Shown here: in pieces, positions 6,335 through 10,520 of the stretch | Numbering within the stretch: position 1 is the stretch's first letter | How the letters are laid out: every line of letters begins with the position of its first letter | Virus record (IMG/VR): IMGVR_UViG_3300034166_000324 | Location: 1-21,316 of that record | Length of the DNA: 21,316 nt | Strand: one strand, 5' to 3' | DNA from: a virus | Notes under the pieces: generated by a model | What the model was told of the DNA's origin: nothing | The model's database searches: none | What the model saw: the letters and a program-made list of their open reading frames with translations, nothing else | Position numbers and translations under genes: made by a program

Positions 6335-7213
6335 TTAGTTCGTGAGATCGAGGAACTCTGCTCTTGTGGATGAATCGGTTCGGAATCTTCCTGAGAATGA
6401 TGATGTGATCATTTCTCCAGGCTTCTTGATTCCTCGGAGGCTCATGCATGAGTGGTGGCCTCTGACGATGCAGGCCGCTCCTTGAGGTGATAGATGATCA
6501 TCGATCGCTTGACGAATTTGTTGTGTCATTCGTTCTTGTACTTGTAGGCGCTTGGCATAGACATCTACGAGCCTGGCGAGTTTGCTGAGGCCTACGACTC
6601 TCTTCCCTGGAATGTAGGCGAGATCGATTGTTCCTGTGAATGGGAGGAGATGATGTTCGCATAGTGAGGAGAAGGGAATGGATCGGAGCAATACCATCTC
6701 ATTGCATTCGACATCGAATGTCGTTGAGAGGATCTCTTTGGGATCTAGTGCATAGCCTTCTGTTTGTTCCTTGAATGCTTTCAATACTCTCTCAGGGGTA
6801 TCGATCAATCCTTCTCTCGATGGATCTTCTCCGATGTATTCGATGAGTCGAGCGATGCCATCTGTCGGAGCGCCATCATTCTTCTCCCACGGGAAGGAGA
6901 TCCAATCGTCTATCAGTCGAGCATCGGGAGCGTAATGAGTTGGCGAGTGAGGTTTGCGGAAGCCTGCATCGATCTTGAATTGCCCGAAGTATTTCTTCAT
7001 CGTGCGGCCTGAGTCGATGAGATCATCGATCACTAGCGTTCCCATTCCTAGTTGTGGCTCTTGGATCATCGGGATCTTGAGGATCTCGGAGATCATGACA
7101 GCGAGCGGAGCGCCACCTTGAGGAATGCCATAGACGGAGAAGACTTGGCCATCCCATCGCTTAGCGATTCGTTCTGCTTCTTTCCTTACTTCTTCCCATG
7201 TCACATGAATCAT
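6335..7213 (-). CDS. folE: Gpt-like phosphoribosyltransferase fused to GTP cyclohydrolase I
   Basis: The C-terminal part (about 115-292) is GTP cyclohydrolase I, which turns GTP into dihydroneopterin triphosphate, the first step to preQ0. It carries the family start IGEDPSREGLIDTPERV, the zinc/catalytic CEHH at 185-188 and HSC at 254-256. The N-terminal 110 residues match xanthine-guanine phosphoribosyltransferase segment by segment: VTWEEVRKEAERIAKR, the PRPP loop TLVIDDLIDSGRT at 59-71, and DDWISFPWE at 102-110, which matches the purine-recognising DTWIEQPWD of E. coli Gpt as I recall it. The flexible loop before the PRPP motif is missing, and the usual Arg of the pyrophosphate loop (SRGG) is Gln (PQGG, 31-34). 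The start overlaps the queE stop as TAATG. Confidence 0.93.
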   Translation of the reverse strand: MIHVTWEEVRKEAERIAKRWDGQVFSVYGIPQGGAPLAVMISEILKIPMIQEPQLGMGTLVIDDLIDSGRTMKKYFGQFKIDAGFRKPHSPTHYAPDARLIDDWISFPWEKNDGAPTDGIARLIEYIGEDPSREGLIDTPERVLKAFKEQTEGYALDPKEILSTTFDVECNEMVLLRSIPFSSLCEHHLLPFTGTIDLAYIPGKRVVGLSKLARLVDVYAKRLQVQERMTQQIRQAIDDHLSPQGAACIVRGHHSCMSLRGIKKPGEMITSSFSGRFRTDSSTRAEFLDLTN

Positions 7214-7935
7214 TACACGCCTCGCTTGTCGTTATGCGCCAGGACATGAAGCCTGGCTGAGAGATTGAATCGGAGATCAGAGCAAACATCGAAGAGCCAG
7301 GGAAGCCTTGTGAGGATCTCTTCTCTTGTTCTTCCTTCAGGCATCAGCCATACGGAGGAGCGAGGGATGCTGAGTTCTTCTTTGAGTTGGATGATCTCGC
7401 GGAGATCTTCTGCATCTTTGACTACGAACTTGAATTGGGAATCTCGCGCCACGAATTCTTCGAGGATGTTTCGCTTGATGGCTTTGTTCCAGGAGACTCC
7501 CGAATTGGTGATCTTCGGTGAGACTGTGAACATGATTCCATCGGCCATTCCTTCAGGTGAGAATGTGCCATTCGTTTCGACTTCGACTAGGCAATCTTCT
7601 TCGATCAATCCTTGAGAGAGAGCATCGAGCGGCTTTCGTTGCACGAATGGCTCTCCTCCTGTGATGACGATCCGATTGAATTGTGATCCCCATTCGATGA
7701 TCTGATCGACTGGAACATTCATTGATTCTTTCTCAGGATCGAACGCGATTCCGTTCTTCCCTTTCCAATCCCATGTGTACGGGGTATCGCACCATCGACA
7801 GTCGAGATTGCAAAGAGAGAAGCGCACGAATGCGGCAGGCTTTCCTTGTGATCTTCCTTCTCCTTGAAGTGTTGGCGCGAAGAGTTCAGAGATCTTCACT
7901 TTGATTGGCTCTTGTGATCTGATTGTTAGGCGCAT
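7213..7935 (-). CDS. queE: 7-carboxy-7-deazaguanine synthase QueE (radical SAM)
   Basis: QueE rearranges 6-carboxy-tetrahydropterin to 7-carboxy-7-deazaguanine. The 240-residue protein has the N-terminal SELFAPTLQGEGRSQGKPAAF typical of QueE, the radical SAM cluster ligands Cys42, Cys46 and Cys49 (CNLDCRWCDT), and the SAM-binding GGEP at 93-96. VEVETNGT and FTVSPK further on are also family blocks. The length is normal for QueE. The gene overlaps queD by ten bases and is followed by folE with a TAATG overlap, so it is translated as part of the deazaguanine operon. Confidence 0.95.
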   Translation of the reverse strand: MRLTIRSQEPIKVKISELFAPTLQGEGRSQGKPAAFVRFSLCNLDCRWCDTPYTWDWKGKNGIAFDPEKESMNVPVDQIIEWGSQFNRIVITGGEPFVQRKPLDALSQGLIEEDCLVEVETNGTFSPEGMADGIMFTVSPKITNSGVSWNKAIKRNILEEFVARDSQFKFVVKDAEDLREIIQLKEELSIPRSSVWLMPEGRTREEILTRLPWLFDVCSDLRFNLSARLHVLAHNDKRGV

Positions 7936-9067: not shown

Positions 9068-9933
9068 CTTTCCCTTCTTCGTGGCCTTCCATCGTAAATA
9101 CTAGACAGGATCTTGCGTTTCTTGGCAAGATACTTCTCATATCTTCTCCAGGAGATCGCGGAAATGATTGAGATGTTGATGTGGCCTTTGGTGGCCGAGT
9201 ATCTCGCTGATGATGAGAATTGTTCTGCATCGAATCCGTAGAAGCGGATCAGGTGAGCGATCTTTCCGATCTCTTTCTTGTCTCCGACTTTCGCTTTCAC
9301 CCATGAGCGGCCATCGAAGAGCGTGACTTGGCCGAATTTCGCTCCAGCGACCCAAGATGAAGAATCGACTGAATGCCAGGGCAACGATTCCATCACTTCG
9401 CGGCTTGTCATTCCGAATCCATGAAAGCGCGTTCCTTGATCTTTAGTTCTTGTCATGCAAGTCGCGCTCCATTTCAAGCAAGCAGGCCTCGGCTGTCCGA
9501 CCATTCCTCCTAGCGCGATGTATGGATGCTCTTTGGCGAGTGAATCGAGATGCTTGAAGTCTGAACCTGTATGAAAGACGGGAATCGGCTGAAGGCCTTT
9601 CAATTCGAGCCGCTTCTGATTCTTTGCTGTTCCTTTGGGATCTCTAATGACATCGAGATTCGAGTAAGCGGTGAAATGATGCTTCCATTGATGAAGCCAT
9701 TCAGCGTATTCATCAACATCGACTGGAGCGCCTTGAGATGCGGCTGAATATGCTCCCGAGTCAGCAAAGATCATCGGAGGCCTGGAGAAATTCTTCGCAA
9801 GATCATCGAAGTTGATCTTCTTGAAGTAATGGAAAGAGGCTAGAAGTTTGATTGGCTCATCTTGCGGCTCGACAGGGATTCGATCTAGGAATCCGTTGAG
9901 ATGCATTGGAAATGTCGCGAGATAGAGATTCAT
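9064..9933 (-). CDS. dpdA: DpdA-like DNA-guanine transglycosylase (TGT superfamily)
   Basis: DpdA enzymes replace guanine in DNA with a 7-deazaguanine base. This 289-residue protein shows the TGT-type pattern: FADSGAYSA (Asp58, matching the DSGGFQ aspartate of TGT), PIPVFHTG at 117-123, a glycine-rich ALGGMVG at 140-146, HGFGM at 171-175, and SVDSSSW (Asp190), a candidate nucleophile. The C-terminal CxCxxC zinc site of tRNA enzymes is not seen, which supports a phage DNA-type enzyme over queuine tRNA modification. Its place between parB-like and queC genes, with ATGA overlaps on both sides, ties it to preQ0. It is shorter than bacterial tgt (about 370 aa). Confidence 0.88.
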   Translation of the reverse strand: MNLYLATFPMHLNGFLDRIPVEPQDEPIKLLASFHYFKKINFDDLAKNFSRPPMIFADSGAYSAASQGAPVDVDEYAEWLHQWKHHFTAYSNLDVIRDPKGTAKNQKRLELKGLQPIPVFHTGSDFKHLDSLAKEHPYIALGGMVGQPRPACLKWSATCMTRTKDQGTRFHGFGMTSREVMESLPWHSVDSSSWVAGAKFGQVTLFDGRSWVKAKVGDKKEIGKIAHLIRFYGFDAEQFSSSARYSATKGHINISIISAISWRRYEKYLAKKRKILSSIYDGRPRRRER

Positions 9934-10520
9934 TTCCTCACAAGATCGATGATTCGATTGATTCGCTCATCGTCTGAGCCTTCCTGCTCTTGCCACAATC
10001 GATCCCAAGCCTCGAATGTTTCAAGCGAGACTGTGGCTTTGATTGTTGCTGTGAATCCATCTGTTCCATCGTGGAGGCCATGCTCTTCGATTACATCTTG
10101 AAGATCATTCGATTCCAGGAGCGCCATGAGATCATCGATGTCATCATTCGAGAAGAGCGTTCCTTCAAGGCCTCGATCAGATTCATTCATTTCGATCAAT
10201 AGGCTCAGAAGATCAGAGTCATCGTATGAAGCGAGATCATTCGCTTTGTTATCAGCGAGAAGAATTCTCATCGATTGATCTTCATCGACTGACAATTTCG
10301 TTGCCGCGATCTCTTTCCAGCCGAGGCTCTTCGCGGCTTTCCAAGTGTGATTCCCTGCAATGATGAATCCTGTTGATTCTTGAATAATGATCGGCCTGTA
10401 TTGGCCATTCAATTCGAGTGATGTTGCAATCATTCCGACATCACCTTGTCGAGCGTTCTTTGGATGAGGCTTGATTGAATCGATGTCGATGATTGATCCT
10501 TTGAGCGATTCATGAATCAT
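9930..10520 (-). CDS. ParB/Srx-like domain protein next to dpdA
   Basis: The first 100 of 196 residues are a ParB N-terminal-like domain: IDIDSIKPHPKNARQGD, GQYRPIIIQ, IIAGNHTWKAA at 53-63 (the GxxR-like nucleotide motif), and RILLADNKAND. Such domains in phages are annotated as ParB-like nucleases, and ParB itself is a CTPase. The C-terminal half is acidic and helical, with no recognised HTH. The gene has AAGGAGTC upstream and overlaps dpdA as ATGA. A role in choosing or preparing DNA sites for base exchange is possible, because similar genes accompany dpdA in other phages as I recall, but this is unproven. Confidence 0.82.
   Translation of the reverse strand: MIHESLKGSIIDIDSIKPHPKNARQGDVGMIATSLELNGQYRPIIIQESTGFIIAGNHTWKAAKSLGWKEIAATKLSVDEDQSMRILLADNKANDLASYDDSDLLSLLIEMNESDRGLEGTLFSNDDIDDLMALLESNDLQDVIEEHGLHDGTDGFTATIKATVSLETFEAWDRLWQEQEGSDDERINRIIDLVRK

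Follow-up and report, generated by a model that had tools for sequence, protein, structure and literature searches.

A Gpt-like phosphoribosyltransferase domain predicted at the N-terminus of FolE in the 7-deazaguanine operon of a probable actinophage

Modification of DNA with 7-deazaguanines is a major route by which phages get around restriction; each modified base uses up one GTP and sets free one guanine, a cost that is seldom discussed. The modified nucleoside dPreQ0 has been measured at ~28% of Gs in the DNA of phage Rosebush and at ~32% in that of CAjan, both of which possess the same minimal enzyme set as the locus described here (Hutinet et al. 2019, PMC6884629). Among actinophages, Gordonia phage Sour, the mycobacteriophages Typha and Rosebush (cluster B), and Microbacterium phage Nicole72 carry genes for a ParB-like protein, DpdA, (QueC), QueD, QueE, and FolE, located directly before the terminase and portal genes; the order in Sour is ParB-DpdA-QueC-QueD-QueE-FolE-terminase-portal, and those in Typha and Nicole72 are near-identical to it. 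Queuovirinae and similar phages (Pseudomonas phages NP1 and PaMx25, Vibrio phage VpKK5, Sphingomonas phage MMDA13, and Stenotrophomonas phage Bhz54) display the order QueE-QueC-QueD-FolE-DpdA, with no ParB gene beside DpdA in the regions seen. In the bacterial Dpd cluster, DpdA is accompanied by the ParB-superfamily partner DpdB (PMC6392294).

The window, that is, the whole stretch of 21,316 bases analyzed here, is a linear virus fragment with a G+C content of about 49%. Its minus strand encompasses, at 6335-10520, six ORFs for a ParB-like protein, DpdA, QueC, QueD, QueE, and FolE (Table 1), all in place as described in an earlier note on this DNA and each with HMM support well above chance; from the ParB-like gene to folE, consecutive genes overlap by 4, 4, 4, 10, and 1 bases. 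A further ORF, which shares one base with the start of the ParB-like gene and yields only weak coiled-coil matches, is possibly the first gene of the operon. The assignment of the virus to actinophages in the same note holds up, given that a WhiB gene occurs in the window as well as in 5 of 11 relatives and that the window terminase most resembles that of a phage infecting Pontimonas, an actinobacterium, with Streptomyces phages next.

Table 1 Features of the operon and its surroundings in the window.
Feature	Position	Strand	Basis
71-aa ORF, probable coiled coil	10520..10735	-	weak coiled-coil matches only
ParB-like protein (ParB_N domain)	9930..10520	-	PF02195, phrog_8071
DpdA, DNA guanine transglycosylase	9064..9933	-	phrog_887, conserved residues, AlphaFold model
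QueC	8372..9067	-	PF06508, TIGR00364
QueD, 6-carboxytetrahydropterin synthase	7926..8375	-	PF01242, phrog_2389
QueE	7213..7935	-	phrog_2076, Cys conservation
PRT-FolE fusion	6335..7213	-	PF01227, AlphaFold model, VIA-align
PRT-FolE residues 1-115, predicted Gpt-like phosphoribosyltransferase domain	about 6869-7213	-	
PRT-FolE residues 118-292, GTP cyclohydrolase I	about 6338-6862	-	
WhiB	14742-14996		E 1.7e-17

The window matches the actinophage systems in gene content and order and in the location of the operon directly before the terminase and portal genes; it differs in its G+C content of about 49% and in DpdA, which is 28-41% identical. The likeness to Rosebush pointed out in the earlier note is well founded, the enzyme set being the same and dPreQ0 being present in Rosebush DNA (PMC6884629), and Sour has the same gene order. 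With the bacterial Dpd cluster, the window has in common only DpdA, including its fold (7ui4), and the ParB-like gene, and the PADLOC DpdA model barely matches the window protein (E 0.008). The operon type is thus already known, and the only unusual feature is a phosphoribosyltransferase (PRT) domain on FolE. This domain is absent from FolE of Sour, Typha, and Nicole72, unlike the window, whereas the Queuovirinae-type phages, despite their different gene order, encode the same two-domain PRT-FolE, which is 39-42% identical to the window protein along its length and likewise adjoins QueD and DpdA.

The pathway proposed in the earlier note, FolE-QueD-QueE-QueC plus DpdA, is borne out by HMM matches to each gene and corresponds to the enzyme set of the phage preQ0 cluster (second group of Hutinet 2019). 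The term 'complete' is apt for the pathway up to preQ0 but not for the genome, because the record is a linear fragment. QueC (PF06508, 3.1e-65) scores above the cut-off of the equivalog TIGR00364; QueE matches the PHROG QueE family phrog_2076 (6e-54), with C38, C42, and C45 conserved at 95-98%; and QueD (PTPS, PF01242, 1.7e-17; phrog_2389, 1.1e-35) is a variant with zinc-ligand positions altered at two sites, as found in a ligand check. The FolE domain (GTP_cyclohydroI, PF01227, 5.8e-68 over residues 120-291) is above the cut-off of the equivalog TIGR00063, its zinc and catalytic residues C185, H187, H188, H254, and C256 are invariant in 69 sequences, and residues 104-292 align with FolE structures at Z 21-25 (VIA-align).

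DpdA matches the PHROG queuine tRNA-ribosyltransferase family phrog_887 (E 2.1e-54), and D58, D94, H171, and D190 are invariant among 33 relatives. Its AlphaFold model (pLDDT 89.8) gives Z of 19-20 against TGTs and DpdA 7ui4, a solved DNA preQ0 insertase (19.4 for the latter). A scan of viral contigs with the single DpdA protein retrieved no relatives, and alignments were used instead; the phrog_887 profile found no match anywhere in four phage records, the controls likewise being without a match, which leaves this search uninformative. DpdA carries a conserved histidine (H196) that DpdA2 lacks (Hutinet et al. 2019, PMC6884629); the invariant H171 of the window protein, within an HGFG motif, is its putative counterpart, which suggests that this DpdA is of the first type rather than DpdA2. 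The neighboring protein matches ParB_N (PF02195, 4.2e-6) and the PHROG ParB family phrog_8071 (5.9e-37), as well as phrog_498 DNA methyltransferase (5.7e-26) and the PADLOC type II methyltransferase model (7.2e-14). Of the 43 loci of relatives that have both genes, 35 have the ParB-like gene no more than 300 bases from dpdA, and the ParB-like protein is likely to be a targeting partner of DpdA.

Given the TGT fold of DpdA and the place of preQ0 in tRNA queuosine synthesis as well, the operon could in principle be directed at host tRNA rather than DNA: it would provide precursors of queuosine, and DpdA would function as a tRNA transglycosylase. We consider this highly improbable: the sequences closest to the window DpdA are phage DpdA proteins, dPreQ0 occurs in the DNA of phages with the same enzyme set, and dpdA of phage 9g fails to substitute for E. 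coli tgt (PMC6884629); furthermore, a search of the window for tRNA genes found none, and a ParB-like DNA-binding partner adjoins dpdA. The operon very probably carries out 7-deazaguanine modification of DNA, which would then withstand host restriction.

We regard preQ0 itself, as predicted in the earlier note, as the probable final base, with the proviso that the record is a fragment and tailoring genes may lie elsewhere. As that note had remarked, no separate QueF or tailoring gene is visible: ORF inspection and HMM searches of the 21,316-base window detected neither an amidotransferase nor a QueF tailoring gene, and in 15 related viral records, themselves fragments, QueF did not occur apart from FolE. 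All QueF matches in these records fall inside open frames of ~296-383 aa, the size of fused FolE, and the T-fold common to both families accounts for the hit of QueF on FolE (E 0.0024), which was discounted as a cross-match. That genes beyond the fragment convert preQ0 into preQ1, archaeosine, or an amido-deazaguanine seems unlikely, albeit with some precedent among the fused-FolE relatives: a QueF-like gene is present in Sphingomonas phage MMDA13 (PMC7472734), and the QueC of Pseudomonas Nipunavirus is long. The window QueC is, by contrast, a plain 231-aa enzyme without an amidotransferase domain, and the lack of a separate QueF in the related fragments points in the same direction.

The window FolE is above the usual length, its FolE domain beginning only at residue ~118. 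The earlier note had correctly called it fused but left the fused part unidentified; judging by the structural model (pLDDT 96.7 for the whole protein, mostly >94 for this part), it is a reduced Gpt-type purine phosphoribosyltransferase. Residues 1 to ~117 have the fold in common with XGPRT/HGXPRT, namely, E. coli Gpt and Sulfolobus HGXPRT (GpT-2), at Z 14-16 (VIA-align). The domain retains the DDxxDSGxT PRPP motif and Lys115 and Trp134 of the Gpt base site, and the corresponding PRPP-motif and purine-site residues of the window protein (D63, D64, D67, G69, T71, K87, and W104) are invariant or nearly so. Compared with Gpt, it is fused to FolE, lacks the flexible catalytic loop (residues 60-80), which is deleted in >90% of the viral family as well, and has Gln in place of the pyrophosphate-loop Arg37, a position occupied by Arg in 62% of the fused and 97% of the stand-alone viral relatives. 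Across 125 distinct viral PRT sequences (Gpt numbering; percentages for fused/stand-alone forms), residues of the PRPP and guanine sites show 91-100% conservation: D88, D89, G94, and T96 at 100%, D92, which we take to be the counterpart of the catalytic base of 6-oxopurine PRTases, at 98/100%, G38 at 93/100%, G39 at 98/100%, K115 at 91/97%, W134 at 98/100%, and W139 at 97/100%. The domain evolves under purifying selection, with dN/dS of 0.03-0.27 in most resolvable pairs and 0.49 at the highest.

This conservation bears on the reading of the domain as a degenerate passenger with a structural role only, for example, stabilizing the FolE decamer. Its shortening, the missing loop, and the loss of Arg37 in the window copy would fit such decay, and many FolE proteins function without a PRT domain; nevertheless, the near-complete conservation of ligand-site residues in divergent sequences, the purifying selection, the very confident predicted fold, and the retention of stand-alone PRT genes adjoining folE make this reading improbable.

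Collection of viral loci by the PRT domain alone, counting genes within 7 kb, yielded 75 loci, 72 of which contain other 7-deazaguanine genes (53 of 56 after collapse at 90% identity). The PRT domain is fused (30) or adjacent (34) to folE in all 64 loci that have folE, and PRT-FolE is the tightest pair of the cluster, with 97% within 300 bases. Chance linkage was rejected with the aid of 80 viral nrdB control loci, which include five QueC but no FolE, QueD, QueE, or DpdA. A tie to folE genes that serve folate or queuosine synthesis in cells was likewise rejected: in a scan of bacterial genomes with the PRT-FolE alignment, the fusion was missing from 78 of the 80 folE loci most like the window, and both loci with a fused PRT domain adjoin DpdA. 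The PRT domain is therefore near-exclusively linked to FolE and the 7-deazaguanine pathway and is widespread in viral operons. A search of a literature collection with few subscription papers returned no report of a PRT-FolE fusion or guanine recycling, and Hutinet 2019 (PMC6884629) makes no mention of phosphoribosyltransferase.

Each DpdA exchange would release one free guanine and cost one GTP. We propose that the PRT domain, using PRPP, would convert the guanine freed from DNA to GMP, which host kinases would raise to GTP, the substrate of FolE; in doing so, the domain would also clear free guanine, a competitor of preQ0 for DpdA. A DNA-modification operon whose PRT domain recycles DpdA-released guanine is, in our assessment, the best explanation overall and a reasonably likely one. 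Binding of guanine or GMP appears quite likely, whereas on catalytic recycling we are nearly undecided, leaning slightly to doubt. Still more tentatively, the loop-less Gpt-type domain might represent a previously undescribed viral module for guanine recycling or sensing that closes a GTP-preQ0-DNA-guanine-GMP cycle. Hosts usually have guanine salvage of their own, which counts against recycling. Because GMP is two phosphorylations short of the FolE substrate, direct channelling fails to explain the fusion, and the domain is missing from many DpdA phages (Sour, Typha, and Nicole72), which implies that it is non-essential.

With no loop, and with Gln at the Arg37 position of the window protein, the domain may be capable of ligand binding but not of catalysis. 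It could then be a sensor in which guanine, GMP, PRPP, or ppGpp, bound in the old active site, adjusts FolE, so that the use of GTP is matched to the progress of DpdA or to the nucleotide state of the cell. The combination of a lost loop with a preserved ligand site fits this possibility, and feedback control would suit a fusion located on the enzyme that opens the pathway; in animals, too, FolE is under the control of another protein, its partner GFRP (entries 1is7 and 7alb), and ppGpp is bound in a related PRTase-fold structure (5vog). A pure sensor, however, has no obvious need for the conserved D92, and the stand-alone PRT genes found beside folE indicate that covalent linkage is not required; we accordingly give this possibility distinctly less weight than guanine recycling.

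A conserved PRT domain is tied to FolE in >60 viral loci, which suggests that the cost of modification is managed by the phages. If so, an unannotated extension becomes part of the pathway, which would explain why the 'GTP cyclohydrolase' of some phages is 100 residues too long. The Queuovirinae-type fusions are annotated as GTP cyclohydrolase only, and in the PaMx25 record the fusion is split, with the start of FolE placed within it.

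The viral record is linear (21,316 bases) and carries, as the earlier note had claimed, a five-enzyme operon with a ParB-like gene, six minus-strand genes in all. Successive genes overlap by 4, 4, 4, 10, and 1 bases, so that translational coupling is likely. Most of these genes were identified concordantly by Pfam, PHROGs, and NCBIfam; DpdA was detected by PHROGs alone and was identified through its fold, the predicted structure (pLDDT 89.8) matching tRNA-guanine transglycosylases and the DNA preQ0 insertase DpdA 7ui4 (Z 19-20). It shares 28-41% identity with DpdA of actinophages, and Asp58, Asp94, His171, and Asp190 are invariant across 33 relatives. 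The assignment to a virus of actinobacteria, previously considered probable, is now well supported, given the WhiB gene, which recurs in 5 of 11 related virus records, and the terminase, whose closest match comes from a phage infecting the actinobacterium Pontimonas, with Streptomyces phages next.

Features of the modification operon and its surroundings
Feature	Position	Strand	Remarks
Six-gene operon	10520-6335	-	order ParB-like, DpdA, QueC, QueD, QueE, FolE
ParB-like protein	9930-10520	-	matches N-terminal domain of ParB-methyltransferase proteins from phages (phrog_498, 5.7e-26; PADLOC MTase_II, 7.2e-14)
QueD	7926-8375	-	two of three usual E. coli QueD zinc-ligand histidines changed (H16 to F, H33 to Y)
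Small HNH endonuclease-like gene	6004-6324	-	between FolE and terminase small subunit
Genes downstream of operon			HNH-like gene, terminase small subunit, terminase large subunit, portal, prohead protease
WhiB gene	14742-14996		

Gordonia phage Sour shows the same order, ParB, DpdA, QueC, QueD, QueE, FolE, terminase, and portal, and the operons of Typha and Nicole72 are close variants. Hutinet et al. (2019) measured dPreQ0 in Rosebush (~28% of Gs) and CAjan (~32%), whose minimal enzyme set is that found here. The gene arrangement is of a known kind, and the operon adds a new member to the known group of preQ0 DNA-modification operons; what sets it apart as a new variant is a fused Gpt-like domain, for which no description was found in the literature searched and which, to that extent, appears undescribed. 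The earlier note had recorded merely a fused FolE. The fusion product comprises 292 aa, of which residues 118-292 are FolE proper, with zinc and catalytic residues retained, and residues 1-115 give weak phosphoribosyltransferase (PRT) signals in sequence searches. The structure predicted for the full-length protein (pLDDT 96.7) matches guanine/xanthine phosphoribosyltransferases of E. coli, Yersinia, Pyrococcus, and Sulfolobus over residues 1-~117 (Z 14-16) and GTP cyclohydrolase I over the remainder (Z 21-25).

The same fusion is present in the isolated phages NP1, PaMx25, VpKK5, MMDA13, and Bhz54, where it is annotated as GTP cyclohydrolase only. In the public record of Pseudomonas phage PaMx25 (L002, 5908-6810), folE starts at a GTG inside the fusion, which leaves most of the PRT domain out of the gene, and a hypothetical protein is annotated from an overlapping ORF in a different frame. 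Stand-alone PRT genes adjoin folE in Flavobacterium phage immuto and Brevundimonas phage StAshley; in Pseudomonas jumbo phage Callisto (L249, 11995-13372), a gpt-like gene directly precedes queE, with folE and queD elsewhere in the genome.

The PRT domain by itself was used to fetch 75 viral loci; 72 contain other 7-deazaguanine genes within 7 kb (53 of 56 after collapse at 90% identity), and 64 contain folE, fused in 30 and adjacent in 34. The three loci without any other 7-deazaguanine gene are L125, L126, and L128; in the latter two, PRT lies <=150 bases from the locus start. In 80 viral nrdB loci handled alike, FolE, QueD, QueE, and DpdA were absent and QueC was matched in 5. Of the 80 folE loci from bacterial genomes that most resemble the window, 2 encode a fused PRT; both adjoin DpdA and are therefore probably viral. 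In six relatives with the fusion (L016, L017, L021, L025, L100, L102), QueC is undetectable in the operon, between DpdA and QueD, a situation shared with mycobacteriophage Typha; these relatives may have 7-carboxy-7-deazaguanine, or one of its derivatives, as the DNA base instead of preQ0.

We aligned 125 distinct viral PRT sequences to E. coli Gpt, whose sequence and residue-to-ligand assignments were taken as general background on this enzyme. The PRPP motif is conserved (D88, D89, G94, and T96, 100%; D92, 98-100%), as are two glycines of the pyrophosphate loop (G38, 93-100%; G39, 98-100%), the lysine of the purine site (K115, 91-97%), and W134 (98-100%). Arg37 is retained in 62% of the fused and 97% of the stand-alone forms and is Gln in the window. 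The dN/dS ratio is 0.03-0.27 in most resolvable pairs and 0.49 at the highest, so purifying selection acts on the domain.

Because DpdA works by base exchange, one guanine is freed for every preQ0 that enters the DNA; if ~28% of the guanines are replaced in a genome of 50 kb present at 100 copies per cell, we estimate ~0.7 million freed guanines, or roughly millimolar concentrations in a small cell. A PRT tied to FolE would convert this guanine to GMP, which host kinases could raise to GTP, and would lower a competitor of preQ0. Such recycling is the single explanation that best fits a guanine-type PRT found almost only with the 7-deazaguanine pathway. A serious rival is that the domain is a non-catalytic sensor adjusting FolE, as favored by the absence of the flexible catalytic loop (Gpt residues 60-80) from >90% of the fused and of the stand-alone forms alike, and by the two kinase steps that GMP requires before FolE can use it. 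Guanine binding is common to recycling and sensing; turnover distinguishes them.

However the other genes are arranged, PRT lies within 300 bases of FolE in 97% of cases, and ParB within 300 bases of DpdA in 81% (35 of 43 loci with both genes), which suggests two functional couples, one for supply (PRT and FolE) and one for targeting (ParB and DpdA). The methyltransferase-associated match of the ParB-like domain is consistent with its guiding a DNA-modifying enzyme and points to a targeting module of general use to such enzymes. Two loci, L055 (2801-5118) and L056 (11331-13258), each carry two distinct, nearby DpdA genes in one operon, perhaps for two target motifs or two bases.

The QueD of the window retains C27, H31, D70, H71, and E110; its double change is common to 36 of 121 viral relatives, in many of which an additional His precedes Cys27, and judging from these residues a different metal site is possible. 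A second virus contig, L013 (IMGVR_UViG_3300035188_000366), encodes an identical PRT-FolE protein and should reach beyond the left end of the window.
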